This document shows, piece by piece, positions 261 through 46,789 of a stretch of 64,000 nt of DNA. The DNA comes from Neotamlana sedimentorum (lineage in GTDB: Bacteria; Bacteroidota; Bacteroidia; Flavobacteriales; Flavobacteriaceae): the NCBI RefSeq assembly GCF_000943565.1, contig NZ_JTDW01000001.1:434001-498000 (forward strand), given 5' to 3'. Numbering within the stretch: the first letter of the stretch is position 1; every line of letters starts with the position of its first letter. A program made the translations under genes and the position numbers. Below the pieces are notes generated by a model that did not search any database, had not been told where the DNA came from, and was given only the letters and a program-made list of their open reading frames with translations.

Positions 261-1808
261 ATGAAACAACTCATATTTTTCTTATTGTCCATGTCAATAA
301 TAACAGTACAAGCCCAAAAAGCTGATAAAAGTCCAAATATCATCTATATTTTGGCAGACGATTTAGGCTATGGAGATGTCAAGTGTTTTAATCCGGAAGG
401 GAAAATTCCAACGCCAAATTTAGACGATATGGCAACTAATGGCATTAAGTTTACCGATGCGCACACTTCGTCGGCAGTTTGTACACCAACGCGATATGGT
501 ATTTTAACGGGACGTTATAATTGGCGTTCAACATTAAAAAAATCGGTACTAGGTGGGTTTTCTAAGTCGTTAATTAAGCAGGAACGAACCACAGTTGCCG
601 AAATGTTAAAAGCACAAGGTTACACAACCGCTTTTATTGGTAAATGGCACTTAGGTTGGGATTGGGCTACTAAACAGGGTGCCGATGAAGCTGATAGAAA
701 TAATTGGAATGCTCAATTGGCGGTGGACTATACTAAGGCTATTAAAAACGGGCCATCAACTCATGGTTTCGATTATTCATTTGGTTTTTGTGGCTCGCTT
801 GATATGGCTCCTTATGTGTATGTTGAAAACGATATACCTACTATGGTGCCAACTAAAACAACTATTAACGTAGACGAAAAAGGGTTTTGGAGAGAAGGTC
901 CAACTTCCGATGATTTCGACCATACCAATGTGCTTCAAGATTTAACCAATAAAGCCGTTAGTTATATTAGTAAAGCATCAAAAAACAAGTCACCTTTCTT
1001 TTTGTATTTCCCTTTACCTGCACCACATACACCTATTTTACCAACCACTGAATTTCTTGGGAAGAGTAATACCAATATGTATGGCGATTTTGTAATGCAG
1101 GTAGACGATGTGGTACGACAAATTAGAGATGCGCTTAAAAAACAAGGTATTTCGGAAAATACATTATTGGTTTTTACTAGCGATAATGGTTGCTCTCCAA
1201 GAGCTAATTTCGATGAACTTAAAAAAGTGAAGCACAACCCAAGTTCGGAGTTTAGAGGTGCTAAAGCCGATATTTTTGAAGGCGGACATCGCGTGCCTTT
1301 TATAGTGGAATGGCCAAAAGAAGGCTTAAAGAATACCTATTCTGATAAAACTATTTGTACTACCGATTTCTTCGCTACTTGTGCTGATATTTCTAAATTT
1401 AAATTAAACGATTATGAAGCTGAAGATAGCTTTAGTATGCTACCATTAATCACTGGAGCAAGCGATAAAAATATTCGTGAGTATACTGTTCATCATTCCA
1501 TTAATGGGTCGTTTGCAATTAGAAAAGATAGTTGGAAGCTCATTGTTTGTCCGGGTTCTGGTGGATGGAGCTATCCAAGACCACAGGATATAAAAAGCGA
1601 AGCCCTTGTGTTGCCAGAGATGCAATTATATAATTTGAAAGCCGATAAAGGCGAAACCAATAATTTAATTGGTGCCTTTCCCGAAAAAGCAGCTGTTTTA
1701 AAAGCAGCACTCAAGAAAATTATTTTAGATGGCAGAAGTACCAAAGGTAAAGTTCAAAAAAATGAAGGAATGGATGGCTGGAAACAGATAGAACCTATTA
1801 TTAACTAA
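261..1808 (+). CDS. S1-family sulfatase (CTPTR active site)
   Basis: This is a 515-residue secreted arylsulfatase-type enzyme that hydrolyses sulfate esters on sugars. Residues 1-19 form a signal peptide ending in QAQ. The metal-binding LADDLGYGD block is near residue 31, with the Asp pair at 33-34. The sulfatase signature C-T-P-T-R starts at Cys74, the residue converted to formylglycine. GKWHLG and a later TSDNG motif complete the family pattern. The segment around the signature (DAHTSSAVCTPTRYG) resembles the fourth sulfatase at 14.7 kb. It opens the main plus-strand run, 27 bp before the GH36-like gene. Subfamily and the sulfate position attacked cannot be fixed by eye. The maturation enzyme is not in the window. 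Confidence 0.93.
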   Translation: MKQLIFFLLSMSIITVQAQKADKSPNIIYILADDLGYGDVKCFNPEGKIPTPNLDDMATNGIKFTDAHTSSAVCTPTRYGILTGRYNWRSTLKKSVLGGFSKSLIKQERTTVAEMLKAQGYTTAFIGKWHLGWDWATKQGADEADRNNWNAQLAVDYTKAIKNGPSTHGFDYSFGFCGSLDMAPYVYVENDIPTMVPTKTTINVDEKGFWREGPTSDDFDHTNVLQDLTNKAVSYISKASKNKSPFFLYFPLPAPHTPILPTTEFLGKSNTNMYGDFVMQVDDVVRQIRDALKKQGISENTLLVFTSDNGCSPRANFDELKKVKHNPSSEFRGAKADIFEGGHRVPFIVEWPKEGLKNTYSDKTICTTDFFATCADISKFKLNDYEAEDSFSMLPLITGASDKNIREYTVHHSINGSFAIRKDSWKLIVCPGSGGWSYPRPQDIKSEALVLPEMQLYNLKADKGETNNLIGAFPEKAAVLKAALKKIILDGRSTKGKVQKNEGMDGWKQIEPIIN

Positions 1809-1835
1809 GCACGCTTTTAACGAATAAATAATCAG

Positions 1836-3938
1836 ATGAAAAATATAATACTTATTGTTTTAGGCCTATTCTGCTTACTATCTTGTAAGGAGCAAAGCGA
1901 TGCAAAAAAGCAAAATTCAAATTTAGATGTATTTCCCGAAATATTAAATCTATCAGCCTTAAACAAAAAAGGAGTTATAACGGTTGCTAAACAAGAATTA
2001 ACACCAGATTCTACAGGAGTTATTGCAGAAATACCATTGGGTTTTCCAGAATATAATCGTGGTATTTATTACCGTCCGTTTTCAAAAAAACTAGCGGCCG
2101 GAAATAGAGTAGAACCACTTTGGTTTAATGATGTTTCAGAATTAGATGGTTACAAACACCAAAAACCAAGAATGGATAGCCATATTAATTTAGGTGCGTT
2201 TATGATGCTTCAAAAGGCAAATGGTGACTATTTAGCGCTTTTGCCTTTAGTTTCAAACCGAATTGGCAATACGTTTTCCATTCACGATAATAAAGCATTT
2301 TTAACGGTGGCAACCTATGGTAAGGCATCCGAAAATGTCGCCGTTCCACTAATAAGTTACGGACAATCAAATAATCCTTACGAAGCAGCTAGAATGGCTT
2401 GGGAAGGTGCTATGAATACTGAAAATGTAAAAGAAAATATTAATTGGCGCTCTAAAAAAGAGTATCCTGAAGCCTACAAATATTTAGGTTGGTGTTCTTG
2501 GGAGCATTATAAACATAAAATTAATGAGGAAGTTATTTTAGGAGCCCTAAAAGGGATGAAAGAAAGTACAATTCCGTTTAGATGGATGTTGATTGATGAC
2601 GGATATTTAGACCATAAAAACGGGGCGTTATTATCTTTTGGAGTTGATAAAAAGAAGTTTCCAAACGGCTGGGAACCTATCACCAGTCAAAAGGACGAAA
2701 AAATAAAATGGATGGGTATTTGGCGAAATTTTAACGGCTATTTTGGAGCTGTATCGCCAGAGCATAACATGCCTAGTTTAAACGAACATTTGGCAGCGCG
2801 TAGTCCAAATGGTAAAAGAAAACTTTTAACACCAAAAATTTCGGAAGCATCGGCCAATGCATTTTTTCATGAAATGACAAAAAACACCAAAGACAATGGT
2901 TTTGATATTATTAAAGTCGATTTTCAATCGGATAATTTCAGAAATAACCAAGGAGCTAGCAACGCTATTTTAGGTGTGCATTATAACAATATTGCCTTAG
3001 AAGAAAATTGCAAAGACAAAGATTTAATGTTGCTAAACTGCATTGCACAACAAAATTTTAATGTGTTTAATCATAAGTATAGTGCACTTATCCGCGGAAG
3101 CGTAGATTATAAAACAACAAAAGACAGGTTAGGTGTTACTTTGGTTCAAAATTTTGCCAATGCGTTTTGGTTGGGGCATACACATTGGCTAGACCAAGAC
3201 ATGTTTTATGCTAATTTCGAAGAAACCGCGCAATTAATGGCAGTAGCTAGAGCCATGTCTGGAGGACCTATTTATCTTTCTGATGTGCCAGAACATATCG
3301 ATGATACCGTTTTAAAACCTTTAACTTACAGTGATGGACGAATTTTAGGCACCTTAGCACCAGCTGTTCCTTTGCCGGAAAGTTTAATGCAGGACCCTTA
3401 TTTCGATGGAAAAGCGTTTCGAGTAATTGCGCCGTTAAAAAACCAAACTGCAGCTATTATGGCTGTCAATTTAAATCAAGATGATAAGGAAGTTTACACG
3501 CAAGTTTCCTTAAAAGATTATGCTTTTGCTGGAGGCATGATACAACCTTACAATGGGCTTTGGAATTTACCTAATGAAGGCGTGTTGCTTTACGATTCTT
3601 ATAAAAAATCAGCTCAAGTTTTAAATGCTGATTACGTGTTTAGTTTAGAATCTAGAAAAGAACGTTTGCTATTGCTAAACCCTATTAAAAAAGGTTGGGC
3701 TATTATTGGTCGTCCAGATAAATATTTATCTGCTGCAACTTTTGATTTGTTAGAAGTTGAAGAAAATAAAATAGAGATAAATATGGTTGAAGATGGCGAT
3801 TTGTTATTGTGGACAAACGGCAAAACACCACATTCTGAAAACTTTGAATTTATAGCACAGCAGGATGGTTTGTGGTTAGGTAAATTAACTACAGCAAAAG
3901 CCGATAAAAATTATACGATTAGCACAAAAGTTGACTAG
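1836..3938 (+). CDS. GH36-like (raffinose synthase/Sip1-type) glycosidase lipoprotein
   Basis: A 700-residue protein with a lipoprotein signal (LLSC, Cys17), so probably periplasmic or outer-membrane anchored. The middle follows the raffinose-synthase/GH36 pattern: GWCSWEHYK, then LIDDGY, then IIKVDFQSD with the likely nucleophile Asp362. RGSVDYK places the likely acid/base at Asp424. The conserved LDQDMF and ARAMSGGPIYLSD blocks follow. The family includes alpha-galactosidases and alpha-galactosyl transferases acting on alpha-linked galactose. In this locus a secreted alpha-galactosidase-type exo-enzyme is the simplest reading. It lies 10 bp before the GH95 gene and is probably co-transcribed. 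The exact sugar specificity is uncertain because PUL members of this group are poorly characterised. Confidence 0.8.
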   Translation: MKNIILIVLGLFCLLSCKEQSDAKKQNSNLDVFPEILNLSALNKKGVITVAKQELTPDSTGVIAEIPLGFPEYNRGIYYRPFSKKLAAGNRVEPLWFNDVSELDGYKHQKPRMDSHINLGAFMMLQKANGDYLALLPLVSNRIGNTFSIHDNKAFLTVATYGKASENVAVPLISYGQSNNPYEAARMAWEGAMNTENVKENINWRSKKEYPEAYKYLGWCSWEHYKHKINEEVILGALKGMKESTIPFRWMLIDDGYLDHKNGALLSFGVDKKKFPNGWEPITSQKDEKIKWMGIWRNFNGYFGAVSPEHNMPSLNEHLAARSPNGKRKLLTPKISEASANAFFHEMTKNTKDNGFDIIKVDFQSDNFRNNQGASNAILGVHYNNIALEENCKDKDLMLLNCIAQQNFNVFNHKYSALIRGSVDYKTTKDRLGVTLVQNFANAFWLGHTHWLDQDMFYANFEETAQLMAVARAMSGGPIYLSDVPEHIDDTVLKPLTYSDGRILGTLAPAVPLPESLMQDPYFDGKAFRVIAPLKNQTAAIMAVNLNQDDKEVYTQVSLKDYAFAGGMIQPYNGLWNLPNEGVLLYDSYKKSAQVLNADYVFSLESRKERLLLLNPIKKGWAIIGRPDKYLSAATFDLLEVEENKIEINMVEDGDLLLWTNGKTPHSENFEFIAQQDGLWLGKLTTAKADKNYTISTKVD

Positions 3939-3948
3939 ATAAAACCTA

Positions 3949-6414
3949 ATGAAATATTTAATAACCATAACCATTTTACTGTTTTCTGTGCTTCAAGTTC
4001 AGGCGCAATTTTTACTGACTTACGATGAGCCAGCGACTGCTTTTTCGGAAGCGCAGCGCAATGATTACCGAAAACCAGGATACATGCAAGAAGCTTTGCC
4101 TTTGGGTAACGGACGACTAGGCGCTATGTTTTCTGGCGGAATTGCCGAAGAGCATATCATGCTTAACGATATTACATTGTGGATGAACGCTAAAAGAGGT
4201 TTAAACGAGGTTGAACAATCTGGAACAAGAATAGGCGCTTATAAAAACTTCGATAAAGTTCGTGAAGCTTATAGAAATGAAAAATATGGCACTGCCGAAG
4301 GCAGTATGGAAGCCACGTCTACCAAATATCTTAGTAGCGAGCAACCTTTGGGTAATTATGCGCCATTTACCGATGTATTTATTACAACAAATCACAATCC
4401 AAATGAGGTTTCAAATTACACACGCTCGTTAAATGCCTTTACAGGAATTGGCTCTGTAAATTATAGCATTGGGAAAGCTAATTTTAAGCGCGAATATTTT
4501 TGTAGCTATCCAAATGATGTGCTTGCCATTCGCTACAGCGCTCAAAATGCAACTATAAACCTAAGTATTAAAGCAAGCTCATTACATAAAATTACCAGTT
4601 TAAAGGCAGATGGGAATCTGTTAGTTTTAAATGGTGAAGCTGCTATGGAAAATGACCCTATTCAGTTTCAAAAAAGAGTTTATATTGATGCTGGCAAAGC
4701 TAAAATAACAGCCAATAATAATGGTGAGTTACAAGTTGAAAACGCCAAAGATGTAAAAATTTATATTTCGGCTTACACCGATTATTTGCCAGATTATCCA
4801 ACCTTTAAAGGACGAAATTTTGAAGCTGATGCTGAAAAAACTTTAGAAACAGCAGTAAACTTAGGCTATAAAGTGCTTAAAAATGCGCATGTAAAAGATG
4901 TGTCTAGTTTAATGGATAACTGCGAGTTAAACCTAGAGTACAAACCGCTAAATCTTACAACCGACGAATTAATTAAAAACGGACCAAGTTTAGAGCTTGA
5001 GAATCTGTATTTTAATTATGCGCGTTATTTGCAGTTAAGTTGCTCTAGAAATGCGCCAGTACCATCGAATTTACAAGGTTTATGGAACGGACATTTAAAA
5101 CCTGCTTGGAATGCCGACTACCATACCGATATTAATTTAGCTATGAACTATTGGATGGTAGAAACCGCCAATTTACCAAGCTCTTTTGCGCCTTATGTGT
5201 CTTATTTAAAAATGATAGCAGAATCTGGTAAGTACACAGCAAGAGAATCTTTTGGAATAGAACAAGGTTGGAGTATGGGACTTAACGGAAATGTATTTGG
5301 GTTTACAGCTCCTAATGTTCATGGTCGCAGAATGCAACAATCGGGCGCTTGGTTGTGTCAAAATTTGTTCGAGCATTATGCTTTTAGTAAAGACAAAAAA
5401 TACCTTGAAGAAATTTATCCAATATTAAAAGGAGCCGCCGAGTTTTATATGGAATTTTTAGCGCCTTGGAAAGATGGCTCATTAATTGTGTATCCAACAT
5501 GGTCGCCAGAAAACGCCTATTTGGTAAAAGAGTTTGGGAAATTAAATAAGCAAGCTTACGGCGCTTCTTTCGAGCAACAATTGGCACTTAATTTATTTAC
5601 CGATTGTATTGAAGCTTCTATTGTATTAAATAAAGATGAAGCGTTTCGAGCAAAACTTAAAACCATAATCCCGAAGTTAACACCTCAAAAAATTGGGCAG
5701 TACGGTCAAATTCAAGAATGGCCAGAAGATTGGGATCGCCCAACAGATCAACATCGTCATATTTCACATTTAATGGCCTTGCATCCAGGACGTGATTTTT
5801 CGCCCTTAACCACACCCGAATTAACTACCGCGGCTTTAGTTACAATGAAGCATCGTGGCGATATTTCAACCGGTTGGAGTACAGCGTGGAAAACTAATTT
5901 TTGGGCACGATTGCATAATGGCGATAAAGCGCATCAATTCTATCAATTTTTAACGTCAAAACGCGCATATCCAAATTTGTTCGATTTTCATCCTCCGTTT
6001 CAAATCGACGGTAATTTTGGTGGTGTAGCCGGTGTGTGTGAAATGTTATTGCAAAGTCATTTAAGAAGCATTAATAATTCAGCAAAACAAATAGAACAGG
6101 CTGCTTTTGTAGGGTATCAAAATAAATCAAATTCGAATCATTTTATTCCTAAAACACCTCATGATATTATCGCAAATGCGCCATACATTTTACATCTATT
6201 ACCCGCTTTACCTAGTGTTTGGCCTAACGGAAGTGTAAAAGGTTTAAGAGCACGCGGAGGATTGGAAGTTGACATAATTTGGAAAGACGGAAAATTAATT
6301 GAAGCTAAAATAACTGCGAAAACCAACACTAGTTTTAGAGTTTATTCAGAAGGAAATTTATCTCAAGTTTTTAGTTTGAATAAGGATGAAGTTAAAGTTT
6401 GGAAATCTAAATAA
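3949..6414 (+). CDS. GH95 family alpha-L-fucosidase (or alpha-L-galactosidase)
   Basis: An 821-residue secreted enzyme (signal peptide to about residue 20, QAQ). The N-terminal domain begins with the GH95 hallmark [17 protein letters not shown] and LNDITLW. The (alpha/alpha)6 catalytic part has [10 protein letters not shown] (Asp394, Asn396), TWSPENAY with Glu521, and [12 protein letters not shown] with Asp687. These match the catalytic Asn, Glu and Asp regions known from bifidobacterial AfcA. GH95 enzymes remove terminal alpha-L-fucose by inversion, and some members act on L-galactose. It sits between the GH36-like gene (10 bp upstream) and an SGNH hydrolase (12 bp downstream). Together with GH29 and the GH141-like gene it supports a fucose-containing substrate. 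Confidence 0.92.
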
Positions 6415-6426
6415 AAAAATAAATTT

Positions 6427-7059
6427 ATGAAGAAAGCATTTTTATTAATGGGTACACTTTTAATGTTTTGGTCCTGTACTACCAAACCAAAAATTATAGC
6501 TTGTGTTGGCGACAGTATTACTGCTGGTGCAAGACATAAAAAGCAAAGTGTAACAGCATACCCGAAGGTTTTAAGTGATTTATTAGGTGATGATTATTCG
6601 GTTGTTAATTTAGGTAGAAGTGGGGCAACGGCTTTAATTAATGGTAATTTGCCATATTGGAATTGTAAAGAATTTTCGAATGTATTTGCCGTAAAACCAG
6701 ATGTTATTACTATTAAATTAGGCACAAACGATTCTAAACCTCAAAACTGGAACGCCCAAGATTTTAAAGAAAGCTACCAAAGTTTAATCGATACCTTTCA
6801 AACCATTTCATCATCTCCAAAAATATACTTGTGTTTGCCTGTTCCGGTTTATGCACACAGTAAATTTAAAATCGATGGGACTGTTGTTAACCAGGGAGTT
6901 ATTCCAATTATTAAATCTTTAGCAACAGAAAATAACTTATCCGTAATAGATTTATATGAGCCTTTTCTTGATAAAGAAAAATTGGTGCCAGATGGTGTTC
7001 ATCCCGAAGAAGAAGGCGCTGCGCTAATGGCCAAAATAATGGCGCAAAAACTACAATAA
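6427..7059 (+). CDS. SGNH/GDSL hydrolase lipoprotein
   Basis: A 210-residue lipoprotein (signal ending FWSC, Cys17). It shows the four SGNH blocks: GDSITAG with the nucleophile Ser, LGRSGATA for the block II Gly, GTND for block III, and DGVHPEEEG with the catalytic Asp and His. Such proteins act as carbohydrate or lysophospholipid esterases. In a PUL, removal of acetyl or similar ester groups from oligosaccharides is likely but not shown. Only 2 bp separate its stop from the GH116-like start, which argues for translational coupling in one operon. Confidence 0.85.
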   Translation: MKKAFLLMGTLLMFWSCTTKPKIIACVGDSITAGARHKKQSVTAYPKVLSDLLGDDYSVVNLGRSGATALINGNLPYWNCKEFSNVFAVKPDVITIKLGTNDSKPQNWNAQDFKESYQSLIDTFQTISSSPKIYLCLPVPVYAHSKFKIDGTVVNQGVIPIIKSLATENNLSVIDLYEPFLDKEKLVPDGVHPEEEGAALMAKIMAQKLQ

Positions 7060-7061
7060 TC

Positions 7062-9644
7062 ATGACTAAACTAAACAAACTAAAGATATTATTTTTATTA
7101 ACGATTGGCTCTGTTACCGCTCAAAGTCAACAATTAAATTGGCCGGTTTTAAAAACGTACGACCAAGATCATATTCAAAAAATAAAAATGCCAATTGGCG
7201 GTATAGGAACGGGCACGATTTCATTTACAGGGCGCGGTAGTTTAGAAGATTGGGAAATTATGAATCGTCCTGCTAAGGGATTTAATCCAACTTTAGAAAA
7301 TCGCGGACCAGTAAAACAAAAAGGACCATTTTTTGCAATTTATGTTGAAGATGGGCAAGGTAAAAAACAAACACGATTATTGGAAGGGCCACCAGACGAA
7401 TCGAGCTACGAAGGGCCTTGGGGCGCATATTCTAACCAGCATGGTTTACCTCGATTTAGTAAGGCAATTTTTAAAACGGCCTATCCATTTGGGCAAGTGT
7501 TTTTAAGTGACGAAAGTCTTCCTGTTGAGGTGGTTGTTGGTGCTTTTAATCCGCTAATTCCTGGAAATATCGACGATAGTAGTATTCCAATGGCTATTGT
7601 TAATTACAAAGTGAAAAATACAAGCGATAAATCTGTCACTATATCTATTGCCGGAAGTATTCAAAATTTTATAGGATTCGACGGTACGCGCGGAAAAACC
7701 ATAAAAAATGTAAATAATATTCGTGAGTTAAATGGTGTAAAAGGGATTCATTATACAACGGAAGGCGTTGATCCAGAAAGCGAACAATGGGGCACAATGA
7801 GTTTTGTGTCTTTAAACAATGGCGAAACAAGCTATCGAACAGCATGGCAAGAAATGAAAAGCCGTTGGGATAAAAAACGACTAGATTTTTGGGACGATTT
7901 TAGTGCCGATGGCATTCTAGAAAAAAGAGAAAATAAATCCGCTAATGCTCCAATGGGGTCTATTGCGGTAAAAAACACGTTAAAGCCTGGTGAAGAAAGA
8001 AACTTTCAATTTTTAATTAGTTGGCATTTTCCAAACAGACAAACTTGGGATAAACCAGGGTTTCAAAAACATATAAAAGCTACGGTTGGAAATTATTACA
8101 CTACAAAATATACCGATTCTTGGGATGTTATTTTAAAAACCTTGCCGCGTTTAAATACGCTTGAAGATAACACGAAAACCTTTGTAAACGCTTTAATAAA
8201 AAGTGATTTTCCAAAGGAAATTAAAGAATCGGCACTATTTAATTTAGCGCATTTACGCACGCAATTAGCCTTTAGAATAAAAAGTGGCCACCTATTAGGT
8301 TGGGAAGGGCTTTTTGATACTTACGGGTCTTGTTTTGGTTCGTGTACACACGTATGGAATTATGAGCAAACAACGCCTTTTTTATTTGGTGAACTAGCTA
8401 AAACCATGCGCGATGTAGAATTTGGTTATGCCACAGATGATGAAGGCTTAATGAGTTTTCGTGTGTATTTACCTTTGGAAGAAGGTCAAAAATGGGGGAA
8501 AGCCGCTGCCGACGGACAAATGGGAAGTATTATGAAGTTTTACCGCGATTGGCAACTTTCGGGTGACGATGATTTCCTTAAAAAGCATTGGCCAAAAGTA
8601 AAAAAATCGCTTGAGTTTTGTTGGATTGATGGCGGATGGGATGCTAATAAAGATGGTGTCATGGAAGGCTCGCAACACAACACCATGGATGTGGAATATT
8701 TTGGGCCAAATCCGCAAATGGGTTTTTGGTATTTGGGAGCACTTAAAGCTACAGCAGAAATGGCTGATTATTTGGGAGAAAATAAATTCGCTAAAACCTG
8801 CAGGAATCTTTATAAATCGGGTTCAAAATGGATGGACGACAATTTATTTAATGGCGAATACTACGAGCAGCATATTCAACCACCAATGTCGGTTAATAAT
8901 GTAGCTGAAGCACTTATTGGAGCAACAGGCCCTACTAAAGGTGTCGATTATACGTCGCCAGATTACCAATTAGGAAAAGGCGTTTTGGTCGATCAGTTGG
9001 TAGGGCAAGTGTTTTCCCATATCGTTGGGTTGGGGTATTTAGCAAAAGAGGAACATATTAAAAAATCGCTGGAATCTATTTTAAAGTATAATTATGTTGA
9101 AAATATGGCTTCACATGCCAATTTTCATCGATCGTATGCTCTCGGCGACGAGTCGGCCTTATTAATGGCGGCTTACCCAGGAGAACGACCAGAAAAACCA
9201 TTTCCGTATTTCACCGAAGTAATGACAGGTTTTGAATATACAGCAGCCGTTGGAATGCTTCAAGAAGGATTAACAGACGATGGTTTGTTGTGCATTCAAA
9301 ATATCCGAGATCGTTATGACGGTAAAAAAAGAAGTCCGTTTAACGAAGCCGAAGCGGGACATCATTATGCCAGAAGCATGATGGCTTGGGCAGGTATTTT
9401 AGCTGTTACAGAGTTTCAATATTCTGCCGTAGAAAAATCAATGAAATTTACATCAAAACCTGGTACTTATTTTTGGAGTAACGGCTTTAGCTATGGTACT
9501 ATTAAGGTAGAAAACAAATTGGCAGAACTAATGGTGCTTTCAGGAGAATTGAGATTAGAAAGCTTCACTTTAAACGGAGTTGGCACCAAGAAACTAAATA
9601 GTTTACTTATAAAAACAGAAGAAACCATTCAAATTAAAATATAA
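7062..9644 (+). CDS. GH116-like glycoside hydrolase (GBA2/DUF608 type)
   Basis: An 860-residue secreted protein with a signal peptide to about residue 22. The N-terminal beta-sandwich carries MPIGGIGTGTISFTGRG and LEDWEIMNRPAKG, which mark the GBA2 N-terminal domain. The C-terminal (alpha/alpha)6 domain has THVWNYEQ, DGVMEGSQHNTMDVEYFGPNP and NEAEAGHHYARSMMAWAG, all typical of the DUF608/GH116 catalytic domain. Characterised GH116 enzymes are retaining beta-glucosidases, beta-xylosidases or beta-N-acetylglucosaminidases. The region aligned with the usual nucleophile does not look canonical to me, so I do not assign catalytic residues. Substrate in this locus is unknown; a beta-linked xylose, glucose or uronate side chain is possible. 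Confidence 0.82.
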   Translation: MTKLNKLKILFLLTIGSVTAQSQQLNWPVLKTYDQDHIQKIKMPIGGIGTGTISFTGRGSLEDWEIMNRPAKGFNPTLENRGPVKQKGPFFAIYVEDGQGKKQTRLLEGPPDESSYEGPWGAYSNQHGLPRFSKAIFKTAYPFGQVFLSDESLPVEVVVGAFNPLIPGNIDDSSIPMAIVNYKVKNTSDKSVTISIAGSIQNFIGFDGTRGKTIKNVNNIRELNGVKGIHYTTEGVDPESEQWGTMSFVSLNNGETSYRTAWQEMKSRWDKKRLDFWDDFSADGILEKRENKSANAPMGSIAVKNTLKPGEERNFQFLISWHFPNRQTWDKPGFQKHIKATVGNYYTTKYTDSWDVILKTLPRLNTLEDNTKTFVNALIKSDFPKEIKESALFNLAHLRTQLAFRIKSGHLLGWEGLFDTYGSCFGSCTHVWNYEQTTPFLFGELAKTMRDVEFGYATDDEGLMSFRVYLPLEEGQKWGKAAADGQMGSIMKFYRDWQLSGDDDFLKKHWPKVKKSLEFCWIDGGWDANKDGVMEGSQHNTMDVEYFGPNPQMGFWYLGALKATAEMADYLGENKFAKTCRNLYKSGSKWMDDNLFNGEYYEQHIQPPMSVNNVAEALIGATGPTKGVDYTSPDYQLGKGVLVDQLVGQVFSHIVGLGYLAKEEHIKKSLESILKYNYVENMASHANFHRSYALGDESALLMAAYPGERPEKPFPYFTEVMTGFEYTAAVGMLQEGLTDDGLLCIQNIRDRYDGKKRSPFNEAEAGHHYARSMMAWAGILAVTEFQYSAVEKSMKFTSKPGTYFWSNGFSYGTIKVENKLAELMVLSGELRLESFTLNGVGTKKLNSLLIKTEETIQIKI

Positions 9645-9649
9645 AACCA

Positions 9650-10699
9650 ATGACAATTAAATTTAAAACGTATTTGTATTTACCATTAGCAGGAATACTA
9701 TTCATTTTTATTACGGCTTGTGGAAATAAAAAATCGAAGGCAGACACGATGTCTCAAGAAGAAGTTGTAGATAAGGAGCAACAAAAAGAACCTATAAGTT
9801 TTGAGTATTCCGAGGTTACAGGAATTGGAAAAGACTCAGTATATAACAGAAGAGACCCAAGTGATATTATTAAAGTTAACGATACATATTACGTGTATTA
9901 CACCAGAATGGATAAGCCTATAAGATCTGGATATTGGGGCACTATTTGGTATGCAACTTCAACCGATGAAGGTCACACTTGGCAAGAGCAAGGCATGGCT
10001 TTAAATGTTGGTGAAAAAGGAACGTTCGATAATCATTCGGTATTTACACCAAATATTTTAGTGTTTAAAGGGAAATATTATCTGTATTATACCGGAGTTC
10101 AACCAACACCTGGAAATGCAGAAAGAAAGTTTGAAGGTAATAGCACTACCGATTTTACCGGAATTGGAGTTGCCGTTTCTAATAGTCCAGAGGGACCATT
10201 TAAACGTGTTCATTCAGAACCAGTGATTGCACATAGTGAAGTGTCTTCAGATTTTGATAGTTATCGCGTTGACGATGCCAGTATGTTGGTACGTGATGGA
10301 AAAATTTGGTTGTATTATAAAGGACGCTGTATTGAGCATGGAAAAGTAGGTGCAAGACATACGCAAATGGGTGTGGCTATGGCAGACACGCCTGAAGGAC
10401 CTTTTAAAAAATACGATCATCCTTTAATAGAAAAAGGACATGAAGTGTTAATTTGGAATCAAAACGGAGGTATTGCATCGCTTGCGTCTTTAAGTAAATC
10501 CATTCATTGGGCTGAAGATGGCTTAGACTTTAATCCGCTTCAAGAAAATTTGGAACATATTCCTATGGCTCCAGGTTTATACCGACCACATTTAGAAAAT
10601 GGAAATACAGCAAGCGAAGTACCTGGTTGGGGAATTTGCATGCGCCAAAGTAAAGGCGAAGCGCATTTGTTTAGATATGAAATTAAGAATTTAGACTAG
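9650..10699 (+). CDS. GH117-like five-bladed propeller glycosidase lipoprotein
   Basis: A 349-residue lipoprotein (ITAC, Cys24). The rest is a beta-propeller of GH43/GH117 type. It contains NRRDPSDIIKVNDTYYVYYT with Asp69 as a likely general base, RVDDASML with Asp208/Asp209, and EKGHEVLIW with His264-Glu265. Known GH117 enzymes are exo 3,6-anhydro-L-galactosidases that use two Asp and a His acid, so this set is compatible. The family could also be annotated as GH43-like. A close relative is encoded at 18.7 kb. The gene follows the GH116-like gene after 5 bp. I am confident of the fold and less so of the family number and substrate. Confidence 0.7.
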   Translation: MTIKFKTYLYLPLAGILFIFITACGNKKSKADTMSQEEVVDKEQQKEPISFEYSEVTGIGKDSVYNRRDPSDIIKVNDTYYVYYTRMDKPIRSGYWGTIWYATSTDEGHTWQEQGMALNVGEKGTFDNHSVFTPNILVFKGKYYLYYTGVQPTPGNAERKFEGNSTTDFTGIGVAVSNSPEGPFKRVHSEPVIAHSEVSSDFDSYRVDDASMLVRDGKIWLYYKGRCIEHGKVGARHTQMGVAMADTPEGPFKKYDHPLIEKGHEVLIWNQNGGIASLASLSKSIHWAEDGLDFNPLQENLEHIPMAPGLYRPHLENGNTASEVPGWGICMRQSKGEAHLFRYEIKNLD

Positions 10700-14704: not shown

Positions 14705-14714
14705 ATCGAAAACC

Positions 14715-16295: not shown

Positions 16296-16324
16296 TGAAT
16301 AAATAGTATAAACATCAATTGAAA

Positions 16325-22640: not shown

Positions 22641-22659
22641 AACAGATAATAATTTTAAA

Positions 22660-24063: not shown

Positions 24064-24068
24064 CCATA

Positions 24069-33653: not shown

Positions 33654-36884
<3,231 letters not shown>

Positions 36885-39900: not shown

Positions 39901-40002
39901 ATTATTACTATCCCTATACAACTAAATCGAGGAGCGAATAATGTTGAGTTGAAAGTGCTTTCTGACAAAATGATTCTAATTGATGAAATTGAAATAAAAT
40001 AG
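36955..40002 (+). CDS. GH2 family glycosidase with C-terminal chitobiase-like and CBM-like domains
   Basis: A 1015-residue secreted enzyme with a signal peptide ending AFSQ. The N-terminal GH2 sandwich has LPHDWSIEGEYSENHPMG. The barrel contains VCNHQDAGALGAAVP, IRTAHNPQTPQFY, YSVGNETGGA with Glu412 and GTENTHTWQVRG with Glu475. ITLASCILGEKK-type Ig domains follow. IEIFYTLNGETPTT is a chitobiase C-terminal-like segment, and the last 120 residues look like a CBM6-like sandwich. It belongs to the beta-galactosidase/beta-glucuronidase side of GH2, but specificity is open. A tiny ORF at 36911 with its own AAACTAAA leader precedes it. The start at 36955 is the first Met with a signal peptide. Confidence 0.85.
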   Translation: MPYKLLIALCVLVSAVPKYAFSQRETINFDSDWKFIQEDISGAQASGFNDDSWRTLNLPHDWSIEGEYSENHPMGAQCGYLPAGIGWYRKTIKVPETWKGKHIELAFDGVFMNSIVWANGEKLGFRPYGWISFGYDISEIAQKSETITFAVRVDNEKQPSARWYTGSGIYAHTWIQVKNKTHIAKNSTFIKTKGNQVFVNGELYDKTKKLKNAVLKISVIDKNGETVASTKTKVQLKKSTKYQQELIIKNPNKWSPQTPYLYTLKTEWVSKKSVLDVEQIKFGVRDIEWKPETGMWLNGENVKLQGVCNHQDAGALGAAVPDKIIRFRIQQLKNMGVNAIRTAHNPQTPQFYNICDELGMLVMDEIFDGWKKKAKNDYGAHYFNTWWKQDLTDWIKRDRNHPSIVIYSVGNETGGAIGKQLVETCHLLDPTRPVTSGHSGSEFMDVLGVNGSSEKQGFLEKLEEKQQGKVFIGTENTHTWQVRGYYRTKTWFRDGFPNKNQRPYELPDLTKNEVFTHDWVDASKRKNRKQIFNSSYDNATVRVSSRLNIAQLRDIPAYAGSFRWTGYDYIGEAGYVHGGWPFKAFMGGAIDLANFEKDLYYLYQSQWTSKPMVHVLPHWTHPKVPLGTEIPVWVYSNCDEVELFFNETSLGKLKPGKTWNSMQCQWMVKWQPGTLKAVGYKNGKAVSESIVKTANRPSKIKLSVDGEPFQNKANDMVQVRVTTTDEDGTMYPYGENRTYFNVLGHGKIKALDNGSPIDVESHVGPNHRKAFYGLTRAYIESTDAYGSINILASCILGEKKLITSNLISINSQILNLRGEPIQPKIEIFYTLNGETPTTNAIPYTGSFKIDLETTVKALIVLNGKPIQVLEEKFGRNEGFTWNASTVNESSTGEQAENATIVKGIIQNKIKGFNGSGYVTLNEKGAAISWYLENDGAEGVVDLSIRYKASKNDTTFIKVTANNKIVEEKLQLGNHLNKADDWYIITIPIQLNRGANNVELKVLSDKMILIDEIEIK

Positions 40003-40212
40003 GTGAATTCAATCTTTTTATTCTATTCAGCAAAAGATAAAAAGATAATATGGTTATTATAATCGGCCTTGTTGTAAGTGTTGTAAGCAAATAAAGTATT
40101 ATATTTTGTAAAATTTGTAGTTGATTGGCATCATATTTTATAACATATTTGTTACAAACCATTTTACCACCATTTCGAAAATAATTTCGAATAAAACCAA
40201 CAAACTAAACCA

Positions 40213-40488: not shown

Positions 40489-40492
40489 CTAA

Positions 40493-43400
40493 ATGAAAAA
40501 AACATTAAAAATAGCAGTTATTATCACAGTCATTTTACTGGTATTGGTACTTGTGCCTTTGTCTGGAAATGGCGATAATAATTTTCTTTTCTTTTTAGGA
40601 CGATTTCATCCTTTAATATTGCATTTGCCTATAGGCGCACTAGTCGTTTTGTTTTTCATGGAAATTATTAATGCCAAACAACCAGAATTACATTTAGATG
40701 CAGCATGTAATATTCTACTTTGGTTTTCGGTTTTAAGTTTTATTCCAACAGTAATATTTGGTTTGCTTTTAGCTTCTAGCGGGAATTATAATGATGATGC
40801 GCTTAGCAAGCATCAATGGTTAGGTTGGTTTACGGCCGTAATTTGCGTTTGGTTGTTGGTTTTACGTCGTAAAAAGTCGACTAAAAACGTCAGTAAAATT
40901 TATAAAGTGGCATTGTTTGTAAATGTTGTACTGTTGTCGCTTGCGGGACATTTTGGAGGTAATTTAACACATGGTTCTAATTATTTAACCAAGTACATGC
41001 CACAGCCCTTAAAATCGGTTTTAGGTGTTAATGATGCAGAAAATTATTTAGCCATAAAAGGCATAGATTCAACTTCCGAAGATGCTATTTATTTTAAAAA
41101 CAATGTAAAACCAGTCATGGAAAAACATTGTTATAGTTGCCATGGCGAAGAAAAGGAAAAAGGCGGTGTGCGTATAGATGTGTTACATTGGGACATGGTA
41201 AATGGACCTGATGCCGAAGGGTGGCATTCTGCCTTAGATATGATAAATTCTGGAGAAATGCCTCCAGAAGATAAGCCGCAATTAACCACCGAAGAACGCC
41301 GTTTGGTAGTCGATTGGATGACCGAAAATTTAGAACACGCGGCTATTGCAAAACAAACCGAGAATAAAGGTGTAATGCGTCGTTTAACCAAAAAACAATA
41401 CACCAATTCATTAAATGAATTATTGGGTGTGCATGTTAATTTTGGTGATGTATTGCCAGACGATGGAAAATCGAAAATGGGTTTTACCAACAACGGTAAT
41501 ATTTTACAAACCTCAGCATTGCACATCGATTATTATCAAAAAATTGCAAGAGAAGCACTAGATAAAGCCATTTTTTTTGGCGAAAAGCCAGAAGCTAAAC
41601 GTTATAAAGTTACTATTGGTAAAAATAGTAGCGCTGGTAAAGTTGGTGCCGAGTATGGCGGCTATCAAACAGCATCTGTAAATAACACCGATTTTTTAAT
41701 TGATATTTTAGATGAATACGGCAAACCTATTCAAGGTAATTCTAAAGCTGAAAAAGATTCAATAAAAGCAACCAAAAACAAAATAGGATTAGGAATGCGC
41801 GGTTCGGCAAGTAACCGTTACAGTGTTGTAAAAGAAGGGATGCTTTTAAACGCTGCGTTACCTGCTACAGAAAAAGCTCCAAAATCGTGGCAAGGGCCAT
41901 CTCCAAATTTAAAATTGTTGGTAAAAGAAGATTTTCCAAGAACGGGCGATTTTGTGTTTAGGGTAGAAGCTTCTCGTGGTTATTTTTTAGCTTCCACCGA
42001 AAAATTAATCGATTTACGTGAAAATAAACCAGCAAAAGCCTCGACGGAAGCTATTCATATTTCAGCTAAAAAAATTAAAAGACCAAAAGGATTAATAAAA
42101 AATAAAACCTATTTAATGCCAGATAATGTAGCCGATAATGTGCGAGCAAACTTCTCGTACGTTATTCCAAAATCTGGGTTTTATCAAATAGATTTAGTGC
42201 ATCCGTATGCTTCAGATGATGCTATGCCGTCTTATCAAATTAGTTTGTTGGGTAAAAAGAAGGCTGGCCGCATTAGTAAACGTTTGTACATGGATGAAGC
42301 TTTAGCTAGCGAAAAACAAGTGGTAACACCAGTAACTTTGGCGTATTTATCCGAAGGAAAACATACCGGATATATTGGTGGTAAGTTTTTTGTAGGTTTT
42401 AGCGATATTGTAATTACGCCTTTACAAGAAAACGATCCATTGCCTAAAATGCTAGCGGCAGAAGCGAAACAAAACAGCTTAAAATATGAAGCTGTAAATC
42501 CATCAATTCAAGCCTTTGCAGGTACAAGAACAGACGATGGGATGGATTATAAAATTTTTGATAAATGTGTTGATGTTACTGCACCTTTTGGTAAAACCCA
42601 AACTTTTGAATTTAAAGGCCGATTAGAAAATTTACCAATTCCATTGGCAGGAAACCAAGTAAGTGGCGATTTAGCAAACATGCTTACGGTAGGTCTTTGG
42701 AATAATCATTTAGTTAAAGAAAATAGCCAAACAGGACCGCCGTTACTCATAAAATCTATTGAGTTTGAAGCGCCTTATCATCCGGTTTGGCCACCAGAAA
42801 GTCATACTAATATATTTTTCGATTCACCAAATAAAGAAAATAAAGCAGTTTACACGAAGGAAGTGCTAAATCGTTTTATGGAAAAAGCGTTTAGGCGATC
42901 GGTAAAGCCTGAAGAATTAAAGCGTTACTTCGATTTTTGGAATAGTATAAAAAATGATTTCGATCGTTATGAAGATGGCGTAAAGGAAGTTTTAGTAGCC
43001 GTGTTATGTTCACCAAACTTTATTTATTTGTTCGAACCAGAGCCAAAGGAAGATGAAGATCCGGTTGAAGATGAGTTTTATTTGGCGTCTCAACTATCGT
43101 ATTTTCTTTGGAATTCTCCACCAGACGAAACTTTAACACGTTTAGCTGCAGAAGGCGATTTACACGACGACATTGGCGAGCAAATTGAGCGTATGGTAAA
43201 CGACTCGAAAATCACTAAAATGATAGAGGCTTTTACTTACGAATGGTTACGTTTAGATAGGCATCAAGCCATGGATACCGACATTAAAAAATATGACGAT
43301 TATACGCGATTTGTTAAGCAGGATATGGCAAACGAAACTTATGAGTTTATGCATCATGTTTTAAAAAACAACATGAGTATTTTAAATTTTATAGATTCCG

Positions 43401-44101
43401 ACTTTGCTATGCTAAACCAAAATTTAGCCGAATTTTATGGTATCGAAGGCGTAAAAGGTCATGAATTTAGACCCGTAATGTTAGCCGATAGCTTAAATCG
43501 TGGTGGTTTGTTGTCGCAGGGTGCTTTTTTAAACGGGCATTCCGATGGTGTGCAAGCGCACCCCATAAAACGTGCCGTTTGGCTTAAAGAAAAAATACTT
43601 GGCGATACACCGCCACCGCCACCACCAAATGTGCCGGAGCTTGATCCTGAAACGCCTGGTTTCGAAAATTTAACCTTAAAAGAGCAATTGTTTTTACATC
43701 GTAACAAAGCAGCTTGTTTAGATTGCCACAGAAAAATTGATCCGTATGGTGTGGTTTTCGAAAATTACGATGCTGTGGGTAGGTTTAATCTAACTGCAAA
43801 AGAAAAACCTATTGATTCGAAATCGACATTACCCGATGGCACAGAGGTAGAAGGCGTTCAAGGTATTAAAGATTATATTTTAAAATTAAAAACAGAAGAT
43901 TTCACAAGGTCGTTAGTTGAGCATTTGTACGCTTATGCTTTAGGGCGCGATGTTAGTTTTGCCGACCAACAAGAAATCGATAGAATAGTGGTAGAAGTAG
44001 TTGAAGACGATTTTCGTTTTCAAACGGTAATAGAACAAATTGTTTTAAGTCCGGCCTTTTATAAAAAAGAACAAAATTGGTTTAATAAAATTTTTGGATA
44101 A
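40493..44101 (+). CDS. Membrane cytochrome c / DUF1587-DUF1592-DUF1588-DUF1585 protein
   Basis: A 1202-residue protein. Residues 1-155 have about five membrane segments, including FLGRFHPLILHLPIGALVV, a DUF2231-like block. A cytochrome c motif CYSCH lies at 213-217 (planctomycete-type PSCyt1). LTKKQYTNSLNELLG at about 300 begins DUF1587. FMEKAFRRSVKPEELKRYFDFW and the following part are DUF1595/DUF1592. AFLNGHSDGVQAHPIKRAVWLKEKILG with a run of six prolines is DUF1588. A second CLDCH (1075-1079) precedes the DUF1585 end, RSLVEHLYAYALGRD. The family is best known in Planctomycetes and has no firm function; redox work on sugars is suspected. Its stop overlaps the next start (TAATG). Confidence 0.88.
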   Translation: MKKTLKIAVIITVILLVLVLVPLSGNGDNNFLFFLGRFHPLILHLPIGALVVLFFMEIINAKQPELHLDAACNILLWFSVLSFIPTVIFGLLLASSGNYNDDALSKHQWLGWFTAVICVWLLVLRRKKSTKNVSKIYKVALFVNVVLLSLAGHFGGNLTHGSNYLTKYMPQPLKSVLGVNDAENYLAIKGIDSTSEDAIYFKNNVKPVMEKHCYSCHGEEKEKGGVRIDVLHWDMVNGPDAEGWHSALDMINSGEMPPEDKPQLTTEERRLVVDWMTENLEHAAIAKQTENKGVMRRLTKKQYTNSLNELLGVHVNFGDVLPDDGKSKMGFTNNGNILQTSALHIDYYQKIAREALDKAIFFGEKPEAKRYKVTIGKNSSAGKVGAEYGGYQTASVNNTDFLIDILDEYGKPIQGNSKAEKDSIKATKNKIGLGMRGSASNRYSVVKEGMLLNAALPATEKAPKSWQGPSPNLKLLVKEDFPRTGDFVFRVEASRGYFLASTEKLIDLRENKPAKASTEAIHISAKKIKRPKGLIKNKTYLMPDNVADNVRANFSYVIPKSGFYQIDLVHPYASDDAMPSYQISLLGKKKAGRISKRLYMDEALASEKQVVTPVTLAYLSEGKHTGYIGGKFFVGFSDIVITPLQENDPLPKMLAAEAKQNSLKYEAVNPSIQAFAGTRTDDGMDYKIFDKCVDVTAPFGKTQTFEFKGRLENLPIPLAGNQVSGDLANMLTVGLWNNHLVKENSQTGPPLLIKSIEFEAPYHPVWPPESHTNIFFDSPNKENKAVYTKEVLNRFMEKAFRRSVKPEELKRYFDFWNSIKNDFDRYEDGVKEVLVAVLCSPNFIYLFEPEPKEDEDPVEDEFYLASQLSYFLWNSPPDETLTRLAAEGDLHDDIGEQIERMVNDSKITKMIEAFTYEWLRLDRHQAMDTDIKKYDDYTRFVKQDMANETYEFMHHVLKNNMSILNFIDSDFAMLNQNLAEFYGIEGVKGHEFRPVMLADSLNRGGLLSQGAFLNGHSDGVQAHPIKRAVWLKEKILGDTPPPPPPNVPELDPETPGFENLTLKEQLFLHRNKAACLDCHRKIDPYGVVFENYDAVGRFNLTAKEKPIDSKSTLPDGTEVEGVQGIKDYILKLKTEDFTRSLVEHLYAYALGRDVSFADQQEIDRIVVEVVEDDFRFQTVIEQIVLSPAFYKKEQNWFNKIFG

Positions 44102-45447
44102 TGAGTAAAAAACCTTGGCATTTAGATCGACGAACCTTTTTAAAAGGTTTAGGCGTAGCATGTATGTTACCTTATTTTGAAGGTATGGCAATGAGTGGTG
44201 TTTCTAAATTTTTTGAACCAGAAAAACCTAAGCGACTTTGTTTTTTATATTTTCCTAATGGGGTTGGTTTACCTCCAGAAAATAGTGCGTATCATAAACA
44301 ATGGAATTGGTTTCCGTTAGGTGGTGAAGGTAGCGACTATAAACTCACAAAATCGCTATCACCTTTAGAAAATCACCGAAGCGATATTTCAATTATGGGT
44401 GGTTTGAGTCACCCTTATAGCCGACAAGTTTTAGGCCATATTGCAGGCGATACTTGGCTTACTGGAGGCGATTTACGAGGCGAATATAAAAACAGTATTT
44501 CGGTCGATCAGGTTGCGGCAAAAAAGTTAAGTAGATACACTAGGTTTCCATCTTTATCATTATCAACCGATGGAGGCGTTGGGTATAAATCTAGAGTTTC
44601 AACCTTGTCGTTTAACGATTCTGGACGACCAATTCCTTCAGAACATCGCCAGCGCGAAATTTTCGAACGTTATTTTTCTCCAAATGGTGGAGGTTCTTCA
44701 CAAGAACGAAGAAAAAGTCTGCATCAAGGCAAAAAAATAGTCGATTTGGTTTTAGAAGATAGTAAAAATCTTCAAAAGCGATTAGGTGCAAACGATAAGC
44801 AAAAGTTAGATGAATATTTAACATCTTTAAACCAAGTTGAAGCACAGGTTAAACGAAATGAAAAATGGTTAGATATTCCTTTAAAAGAATTTGATGCGAG
44901 TTTAATAAATTTAGATGTAGATCCAACGTCAGCGCCCGAAGATTATGTGCGTTCTATGATGGATTTAATGGTGTTAGGTTTTCAAACCGATGCGACTCGT
45001 GTTATTACTTATATGATGGCACGTGAAGACGGTATGGGCTTTGGTGATAATTTCCCTAAGATTGCTTTAAAACTTAAAGGGCATCATAGCATTTCACACG
45101 ATAAAACTACAGGACATTGGGAAGATTGGGGGCGTTTAGACCAATGGTACGCCAAACAATTTGCTTATTTTATTGATAAAATGAAAAACACCAAAGATGA
45201 ACACGGTTCTTTGTTAGATAATACGTTAATTCTTTACGGAAGCGCATGTAGTTCTACGCATAATGCGCGTAATTGTCCATTAATTTTAGCAGGTGGAAAT
45301 AATTTGGGCGTAAAACATGGCGCTTATACTAAGTTTAAAGAAAAAGAAGTGCCATTATCTAACCTGTATGTTAGCATGCTTAATAAAGTAGGCGTAGCTA
45401 CCGAAACGTTCTCTGATAGTACAGGGCCGTTGCCTTCAATAATATAA
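44101..45447 (+). CDS. DUF1552 protein with Tat-type signal
   Basis: A 448-residue protein. The N-terminus DRRTFLKGLGVACMLPYFEG is a twin-arginine signal, so it is probably exported folded. LCFLYFPNGVG, GLSHPY and GHIAGDTWLTGG, and later GSACSSTHNARNCPLILAGG are typical of DUF1552. This family is nearly always encoded directly after a DUF1592-type cytochrome gene, as here with a TAATG overlap. The role is unknown. Tat export suggests a cofactor or metal bound before export (inference). The pair is followed 28 bp later by the FucP-type symporter, suggesting that its product or substrate is a sugar. Confidence 0.88.
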   Translation: MSKKPWHLDRRTFLKGLGVACMLPYFEGMAMSGVSKFFEPEKPKRLCFLYFPNGVGLPPENSAYHKQWNWFPLGGEGSDYKLTKSLSPLENHRSDISIMGGLSHPYSRQVLGHIAGDTWLTGGDLRGEYKNSISVDQVAAKKLSRYTRFPSLSLSTDGGVGYKSRVSTLSFNDSGRPIPSEHRQREIFERYFSPNGGGSSQERRKSLHQGKKIVDLVLEDSKNLQKRLGANDKQKLDEYLTSLNQVEAQVKRNEKWLDIPLKEFDASLINLDVDPTSAPEDYVRSMMDLMVLGFQTDATRVITYMMAREDGMGFGDNFPKIALKLKGHHSISHDKTTGHWEDWGRLDQWYAKQFAYFIDKMKNTKDEHGSLLDNTLILYGSACSSTHNARNCPLILAGGNNLGVKHGAYTKFKEKEVPLSNLYVSMLNKVGVATETFSDSTGPLPSII

Positions 45448-45475
45448 ATATCATCCAATTAAAATATTAAACTAA

Positions 45476-46789
45476 ATGACCAACCAAACTAAAACACCAA
45501 TAGTTAGTAAAGAATTATTGTTTCCATTTATTGTAATTACTTCGTTATTTGCGCTTTGGGGAATTGCTAACGATTTAACCAACCCAATGGTTTCTGCATT
45601 TAAAAAAGTAATGCCAGAATTGTCTAATATTCAGGCATCATTGGTGCAGTTTGCTTTTTACTTCGGATATTTTTTTATGGCCTTACCGGCAGCTTTATTC
45701 ATTAGGAAATTTAGTTACAAATCAGGAATTTTATTAGGTTTAACCTTGTACGCAATTGGCGCCTTTTTATTTTATCCGGCAGCCAAATATGAAGAATATA
45801 ATTATTTTTTAGTGTCGCTTTGGGTTATTACTTGTGGTTTAGCTTTTTTAGAAACCACGGCTAACCCTTTAATTTTAGCTTTAGGCAACAAAAAAACAGC
45901 AACGCAGCGGTTAAATTTAGCTCAGGCATTTAATCCAGTTGGTTCTTTAACAGGGATGATAATTGCGCAGGTTTTTGTGTTAGGAGCACTTCAATCGGAT
46001 GATTATACTACCGATGCTTACAATGCTTTGTCTTCGCAAGAATTGGCAGCTATTAGGGAAAACGATTTAGGTGTAATTAGTGTGCCTTATTTAAGTTTAG
46101 GTGTTTTGGTGTTAATAATAATGGCTATAATATTTTTTACAAAAATCCCAAAAACACCAGAGGCCGATAAAATGAGTTTGAAGGCTTCATTTTCAAAATT
46201 ATTTGCCAATAAAAATTATTTAATGGGGGTTTTGGCTCAAGCTGCATGTGTTGGCTCTCAAATTATGTGTTGGACGTACATTTTTCAGTATGTCGATAAT
46301 TTAAATGCAGAAATGGGATGGAATATTACCGCGACAAATTATAACATTGCTGCGATGATTTTGTTTTTGTCTGGTCGATGGATTGGCACAGGATTAATGA
46401 AAAAGGTTAATCCGCCAAAAGTTTTGGCTTTGTTTGGTACTTGTGGAGCTCTAGCCAGTATAGGTGCTATTGCTTTGCCAGGAATGGCAGGATTAATTTC
46501 GTTGGTCGCTATTTCAATATTTATGTCTATAATGTTTCCAACAATTTATGGTATTGCTTTAAAAGATATGGGCGATGAAGCCAAAATAGGTTCTGCTGGT
46601 TTAGTTATGGCTATTGTTGGTGGTGCTTTAATGCCGATAGCTCAAGCTGCCATTTTAGATTTAGGTGGGGACGGATTTAACGATTTAAATATAATGGGTT
46701 ACATTCCAGAAGTTAATGCTTCGTTTATTTTACCAGCGCTATGTTTAGCGTTTGTTGGCTATTATGGGTATACTAGTAGAAAATTTTGA
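45476..46789 (+). CDS. FucP-family sugar/H+ symporter (MFS)
   Basis: A 437-residue inner-membrane protein with about 12 hydrophobic segments. LFALWGIANDLTNPMVSAFKKVM in the first helix region, QFAFYFGYFFMALPAALFIRKFSYKSG, and GLAFLETTANPLILALG are hallmarks of the FucP/glucose-galactose transporter family. These import L-fucose, galactose, glucose or N-acetylglucosamine with protons. In a fucosidase-rich locus L-fucose is the best guess. An AAACTAAA element overlaps the start codon. The gene ends the plus-strand operon and is followed by a strong terminator. I leave the symbol empty because the substrate is not certain. Confidence 0.88.
   Translation: MTNQTKTPIVSKELLFPFIVITSLFALWGIANDLTNPMVSAFKKVMPELSNIQASLVQFAFYFGYFFMALPAALFIRKFSYKSGILLGLTLYAIGAFLFYPAAKYEEYNYFLVSLWVITCGLAFLETTANPLILALGNKKTATQRLNLAQAFNPVGSLTGMIIAQVFVLGALQSDDYTTDAYNALSSQELAAIRENDLGVISVPYLSLGVLVLIIMAIIFFTKIPKTPEADKMSLKASFSKLFANKNYLMGVLAQAACVGSQIMCWTYIFQYVDNLNAEMGWNITATNYNIAAMILFLSGRWIGTGLMKKVNPPKVLALFGTCGALASIGAIALPGMAGLISLVAISIFMSIMFPTIYGIALKDMGDEAKIGSAGLVMAIVGGALMPIAQAAILDLGGDGFNDLNIMGYIPEVNASFILPALCLAFVGYYGYTSRKF

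Follow-up and report, generated by a model that had tools for sequence, protein, structure and literature searches.

Fucoidan, which is slow to break down, has been considered as a carbon sink (PMC12786026), and research on the enzymes that open it is continuing. The closest described relative of the locus analyzed here, found in a 64,000-nucleotide window of Neotamlana sedimentorum (contig NZ_JTDW01000001.1, below C1, positions 434001-498000; "the window" is this whole stretch), is the mixed ulvan/fucoidan polysaccharide utilization locus (PUL) of Maribacter dokdonensis 62-1. According to its description (PMC8072126), that PUL shares with ours the glycoside hydrolase (GH) families GH29, GH95, GH97, GH117 and GH141 as well as sulfatases, and it likewise has kduI/kduD nearby and a fucose importer downstream. 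It is also described as holding the polysaccharide lyases (PLs) PL33 and two PL40, together with GH28 (PMC8072126), whereas no PL or GH28 match was found in the window. Present in our locus are also GH30, GH36-like, GH116 and GH136-like genes and an orphan gene, g17.

Endo-fucanases are listed in families GH107, GH168, GH174 and GH187 (PMC11943901). An earlier note on this DNA had described a large sulfated-glycan locus without any recognizable endo-enzyme, which was expected to be either an unassigned protein of the locus or encoded elsewhere. For this genome, the missing enzyme is best explained by GH168 proteins that would act in trans, judging from homologs of a characterized endo-fucanase on another contig. 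Overall, we consider it fairly probable that the region combines a fucan PUL served by GH168 in trans with a separate uronate module. Loci of this kind are already known, and the one at hand probably contains an orphan enzyme family, g17; it yields a short list of testable proteins.

Endo-fucanase homologs outside the locus

The endo-1,3-fucanase Fun168A (PDB 8ya6) has a close homolog in the genome on contig C32, while a search of the window and its flanks found none. The protein encoded at L023:3806-5011 on this contig matches 8ya6 at E 1.5e-213 over residues 15-401, i.e. over the whole domain. When four genomes of the genus were searched, GH168 matches were confined to N. sedimentorum, where contig C32 holds all five; the other three genomes, Tamlana sargassicola included, gave none. 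Among the five matches are a short piece and two distant ones (32-34% identity); all four of the proteins that were scanned matched PF14885. Their surroundings hold GH29, GH97 and GH43-type genes, as well as sulfatases read from sequence. With three GH168 queries against 21 sequences, matches appeared only in the stretches L023 and L024 of C32, and none in the 404 kb covered from C1 (with the window), C51 and G102 (T. sargassicola). The absence of an endo-fucanase from the locus thus refers to GH168 in the window and its flanks, as GH107, GH174 and GH187 were not searched in any genome.

We infer that the C32 proteins cut fucan. Encoded together with further GH29 and sulfatase genes, they would open the fucan backbone in trans, after which large oligosaccharides would enter through the SusC/SusD pair and be degraded to L-fucose and galactose by largely periplasmic enzymes, namely sulfatases and hydrolases that mostly act in exo mode. 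Brown-algal fucoidans are reported to include galactan backbones bearing sulfated fucose branches (PMC13380512), and cuts inside galactose-containing stretches would most likely be made by the GH30 protein g21.

Extent and gene content of the locus

The boundaries of 261-46789 proposed in the earlier note had to be abandoned, since the same gene run carries on upstream of the window. The whole locus spans approximately 69 kb (C1:411447-480789), starting about 22.5 kb before the window and having the fucose transporter gene fucP as its last gene. Domains were identified by a Pfam scan (E≤0.001) of 37 out of the 42 listed window open reading frames (ORFs) of at least 100 amino acids, the five left out being short and situated on the reverse strand of genes, and 14 upstream proteins were scanned as well. 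At the head of the locus are a sigma factor of extracytoplasmic function (ECF) build and FecR, followed by SusC and SusD. The upstream part also includes four sulfatases, GH97, a second GH95, a second GH116, a LamG-like protein scoring below the Pfam cut-off and an SGNH-like protein ending at window base 210. Genes g01 to g23 lie on the same strand and are tightly packed, with intergenic gaps of at most 199 bases. The genes inside the window (window coordinates, strand, description) are:

261..1808, +, g01, S1-type sulfatase (PF00884, 7.6e-52)
1836..3938, +, g02, GH36-like, raffinose synthase/alpha-galactosidase type (PF05691, 4.5e-28)
3949..6414, +, g03, GH95 (PF22124, 7.7e-143)
6427..7059, +, g04, SGNH/GDSL hydrolase (PF13472, 1.5e-25)
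7062..9644, +, g05, GH116-like (PF12215, PF04685)
9650..10699, +, g06, GH117-like (PF04616/PF00251; 41% identity to g12, E 5e-75)
10714..11853, +, g07, lactonase, 7-bladed propeller family (PF10282, 5.6e-95)
11858..13270, +, g08, sulfatase (PF00884; C-x-P-x-R motif)
13283..14704, +, g09, sulfatase (PF00884)
14667..16295, +, g10, sulfatase (PF00884)
16319..18706, +, g11, GH141-like beta-helix with C-terminal PDZ (match to BT_1002; Pfam)
18714..19697, +, g12, GH117-like (homologous to PDB 4ak7, 8e-47)
19751..21046, +, g13, DUF6786, probable lipoprotein (PF20583, 8.4e-167)
21048..22640, +, g14, GH29 (PF01120, 1.4e-89)
22627..24063, +, g15, CarboxypepD_reg domain and right-handed beta-helix (PF13715, PF13229)
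24033..25559, +, g16, sulfatase (PF00884)
25570..27141, +, g17, orphan, probable lipoprotein, predicted GH43/GH32-type beta-propeller (structure model)
27180..28625, +, g18, sulfatase (PF00884)
28710..30350, +, g19, GH136-like beta-helix with D-x6-D pair (PDB 7v6m, 7e-34)
30550..32022, +, g20, sulfatase (PF00884)
32045..33646, +, g21, GH30 (PF14587)
33690..36884, +, g22, GH2, LacZ type (PF02836, PF02929)
36955..40002, +, g23, GH2 (PF02836, PF16355)
40493..44101, +, g24, membrane cytochrome with PSCyt/PSD domains and two CxxCH (Pfam, motif)
44101..45447, +, g25, HXXSHH (DUF1552) protein with RR in its N-terminus (PF07586, 1.3e-81)
45476..46789, +, g26, FucP L-fucose:H+ symporter, end of the locus (TIGR00885, 494 bits against a cut-off of 280)

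The enzyme content read earlier from the window was largely borne out: the seven sulfatases (11 in the whole locus, including the four upstream), GH29, GH95, the two GH2, GH30, GH36-like and GH116 all have Pfam matches, the two GH117-like and the GH141-like proteins are supported by homology, and there is no PL family among the 37 window ORFs scanned. A SusC/SusD pair, alpha-L-fucosidase families, sulfatases and a fucose uptake gene, whose fucP equivalog score exceeds the cut-off, are thus found together. Going by these domains, the window contains the distal two thirds of a PUL for brown-algal fucose-containing sulfated polysaccharides, which are probably galactose-bearing.

As for export, a scan of 37 proteins from the window and 14 from upstream found no type IX secretion system tail domain (PF18962). 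In both SusD proteins the lipid cysteine is followed by acidic residues (CEDEF, CDEEF), as described for a surface-export signal (PMC5080379). Among the window enzyme lipoproteins picked by a lipobox scan, g17 included, none has two adjacent acidic residues at this place, the pattern being a crude one that overlooked three or more lipoprotein-like N-termini upstream and accepted a doubtful cysteine in g04. The second GH168 protein (CSNNDEP) comes closest to the signal. As far as such crude motifs go, the lack of surface signals on the locus enzymes favors the import of fragments cut by enzymes encoded elsewhere.

An orthologous locus is present in T. sargassicola 62-3, with counterparts of 20 out of the 26 genes g01 to g26 at 71-98% identity. 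The comparison covered best matches in 80 kb, which did not reach the start of the locus, with all matches checked for six genes. The identities were 89% for g17 and 81% for g21, while only remote counterparts (38-48%) were found for g11 (38%), g12 and g22 in this DNA. The matches of g18 were to other sulfatases only, with roughly 30% identity, and g14 and g19 had no match in the 80 kb. The protein g13, whose DUF6786 match in Pfam is full-length, is 88% identical to its counterpart.

A probable neighboring uronate module

Downstream of fucP lies another set of genes, situated on both strands:

46894..48687, -, g27, SusD (PF07980)
48725..51943, -, broken SusC, three ORFs in two frames
52279..53580, +, g31, GH88 (PF07470, 1.3e-14)
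53658..54833, -, g32, DUF4861 (PF16153)
54852..55646, -, g33, KduD-type short-chain dehydrogenase/reductase (PF00106/PF13561)
55653..56495, -, g34, KduI (NF002091, 449 bits against a cut-off of 250)
56634..57653, +, g35, LacI-type regulator (PF00356)
57838..62013, +, g36, hybrid two-component sensor/AraC regulator (PF07494, PF02518, PF00072, PF12833)

GH88 and the Kdu genes, which the earlier note had counted as part of the locus, are indeed present. They are located at 52279-56495, however, outside 261-46789, and have their own LacI and hybrid-sensor genes as well as a second SusC/SusD pair next to them; from this arrangement we read GH88, KduI and KduD as a separate neighboring uronate module. 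The KduD label of g33 was given because its neighbor is KduI. The DUF4861 protein, located beside GH88 and KduI, had no PDB sequence match at E≤1. Two frame breaks interrupt the SusC gene, one of them at a seven-G run (49210-49216), and the T. sargassicola counterpart is unbroken (1067 amino acids); the gene may be a pseudogene, a case of phase variation or an assembly error.

The orphan beta-propeller g17

No sequence match was obtained for g17 in Pfam (E≤0.001), NCBIfam (E≤0.01) or PDB (E≤10), so at the sequence level it belongs to no family described in these three databases, CAZy not being among those compared. The AlphaFold model is confident (pLDDT, the predicted local distance difference test score, 91.4). 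A Foldseek search of the model against PDB gave 289 matches at E≤0.001, the best 50 being led by GH43/GH32-type propellers. The predicted fold is therefore of the GH43/GH32 beta-propeller type, although template modeling (TM) scores are low: the best 50 matches have 7-14% identity, TM-scores not exceeding 0.57 by target or 0.35 by query, and large root-mean-square deviations, from which the fold class of the model appears clear and the relationship remote. Going by its fold relatives rather than by a count on the model, the propeller would have five blades.

Out of the 118 relatives found in a scan of GTDB genomes, distributed over Bacteroidota and the PVC (Planctomycetes-Verrucomicrobia-Chlamydiae) group, 80 were kept. 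In an alignment of 80 sequences (79 relatives with 52-89% identity), 77 columns are invariant, and many of these hold acidic residues. Within the family, a strong g17 match was found in 4 of 298 other genomes, in one of these in pieces. In the 80 kept loci, a sulfatase-like ORF was found in 63, GH29-like in 32, GH141-like in 15, GH117-like in ten, GH95-like in five and GH30-like in one; these are best matches (E≤1e-15) to the proteins of our locus in loci of up to 21 kb, many of them cut by contig ends, and were counted with no background control. The set g08-g09-g10-GH29-g16-g17-g06 recurs in two out of three Arenibacter loci, the third being without a g09 match. A g06 homolog adjoins g17 in Arenibacter, Maribacter and Portibacter loci.

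From the model and these surroundings we judge g17 to represent a hydrolase family undescribed in the databases compared, with fucose-containing sulfated glycans as its putative targets. It would most likely hydrolyze a fucose- or galactose-type bond in sulfated oligosaccharides, in either exo or endo mode. As a conserved orphan, it is the part of the locus that deserves bench work. A bolder proposal is that g17 founds a new hydrolase family, with members in Bacteroidota, Planctomycetota, Verrucomicrobiota and Lentisphaerota, whose internal cuts in sulfated fucan or galactofucan would make it the common backbone cutter of loci without GH107, GH168 or other known endo-fucanases; this we hold to be rather unlikely.

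Backbone cutters and alternative readings

The association with GH168 was assessed in 15 distinct g17-bearing genomes of our own choosing (13 from the 80 kept loci, plus T. sargassicola, G124 and G214, the last having the same coordinates as G302 and thus counted once). GH168 was present in eight of these, compared to 4 of 149 family genomes (our own genome included). Several points speak against a fucan PUL that depends on GH168 in trans: the other seven g17-bearing genomes examined have no GH168, T. sargassicola has the orthologous locus and no GH168 match, the localization calls are at the motif level only, and g21 is without a characterized close relative, its nearest PDB chain (3clw) being unnamed and the endo-acting GH30 members remote. 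Given these genomes, GH168 is therefore not a general partner, nor the general answer for loci of this kind; judged from its distribution, it is something that accompanies this biology, yet is not required.

In the earlier note, the endo-enzyme was sought either elsewhere, where the C32 homologs would now supply it, or in an unassigned protein of the locus, for which g11, g17, g19 and g21 are all proteins that could act on internal bonds. That the backbone cutter is g17, g21 or g11, with GH168 serving a different fucan, is a tentative possibility to be taken seriously. The locus without GH168 in T. sargassicola leaves room for such a cutter, and also for a GH107, GH174 or GH187 enzyme, which T. 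sargassicola could carry. Both g17 and g21 are well kept there, and the proteins matching g17 in fold comprise endo-arabinanases and the endo-levanase BT1760, but exo-enzymes as well, all in loose superpositions, and g17 is without the acidic surface-export signal. In g21, a glutamate in NEP (221-223) and one in SEY (345-347) are putatively catalytic, roles which we take over from GH30 at large. Relatives of g21 (E<1e-100) were found in nine out of ten Bacteroidota genomes with g17 (Flavivirga being the exception), against 8 of 146 family genomes without a strong g17 match, relatedness not being controlled and not all of the ten belonging to the background family; the five non-Bacteroidota genomes with g17 had at most a weak match. 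As to g11, the earlier note had held GH30 to be the only family here with known endo-acting members, but GH141 is reported to include an endo-xylanase and, since December 2025, the endo-fucanases Wf141_1 to Wf141_4 (PMC12786026). The homology of g11 to the GH141 protein BT_1002 (1.6e-16, in pieces) thus provides a fucanase-family match in the window, which the earlier note had named as an outcome that would refute it, but at the family level only and not at that of signatures. Two out of three signatures of the GH141*6 endo-fucanases, HQxWxxxD and DGx24Nx4N, are absent, only the short RxD is present, and g11 carries a PDZ domain; it was rejected as a GH141*6 endo-fucanase, and its counterpart in T. 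sargassicola is poorly conserved. Another GH141 branch is also described as having endo-fucanase activity (Wf141_3; PMC12786026). A second GH141-like protein, 48% identical to g11, is encoded at L034:11188-13551 and is also without both of these signatures.

A further candidate, missed earlier, is g19. With a beta-helix homologous to 7v6m over approximately 400 residues, and with D337/D344 corresponding to the catalytic D-x6-D pair of ErLnb136 (D568/D575; PMC7335108), it qualifies as GH136-like, and might release disaccharides or cut a galactose-rich stretch; GH136 and sulfatases are also reported together from a Winogradskyella locus, whose substrate is given as not known (PMC9723794). Characterized GH136 members are, however, described as releasing lacto-N-biose-type units (PMC7335108). 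From these lacto-N-biosidases g19 differs by its marine sulfatase locus and by having no N-terminal GH136I-type domain, the beta-helix running from the start of the protein (a separate subunit was not sought). Out of 99 other family genomes, just five have a relative of g19, always with 25-35% identity, and those of their ORFs that were examined did not show the catalytic motif. As g19 has no match in the T. sargassicola locus compared, it is unlikely as a core cutter, and we regard the whole proposal as very unlikely. The unassigned beta-helix protein g15 gave PDB matches of only E 0.018 or worse when considered as a lyase, and its fold model, built from two sequences, was uninformative (pLDDT 29). 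An alternative in which the locus would serve to degrade a uronate-bearing polymer that a lyase cuts open, with GH88, KduI and KduD as its core, seems quite unlikely. These genes do adjoin the locus, GH88 and the SusC/SusD pair are also kept in T. sargassicola, and Chondroitinas_B, Alginate_lyase2, Alginate_lyase and heparinase II/III-type genes are found on C1, the nearest about 9 kb upstream of the locus. The uronate genes lie past fucP, however, accompanied by regulators of their own and by another SusC/SusD pair, the lyase-type genes found on C1 are outside the locus, with yet another SusC/SusD pair in between on the upstream side, and no lyase family occurs among the window ORFs scanned.

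The g24-g25-g26 cassette

The best conserved genes of the locus are g24, g25 and g26 (97-98% identity to T. sargassicola), which are set apart from g23 by a 490-base gap. Relatives of g25 were found in 12 of 299 family genomes, and within flanks of about 1.5 kb a g24-like ORF was adjacent in all 12 and a FucP-like one in ten (one of these at 38%). Four of the five genomes with a strong g17 match have g25, as against 8 of 294 others, relatedness being ignored. A link of the redox pair g24/g25 to L-fucose is possible, and we speculate that there might be an oxidative step on L-fucose, with the lactonase g07 also in the locus. In Verrucomicrobia, sulfatases with PSCyt genes nearby have been reported, the function of the latter being given as not known (PMC5615132).

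Other regions

Two further regions were noticed by eye. In L035 to L037 (C1:558001-618000), several paralogs begin with a similar 'SLxEL...PGxY' and are found near sulfatases and heparinase-like genes; out of three that were scanned, one was without any match and two had weak beta-helix matches. The translations of L020 to L022 (C51:80001-140000) are very rich in sulfatases and include GH29-, GH95- and hexosaminidase-like genes.

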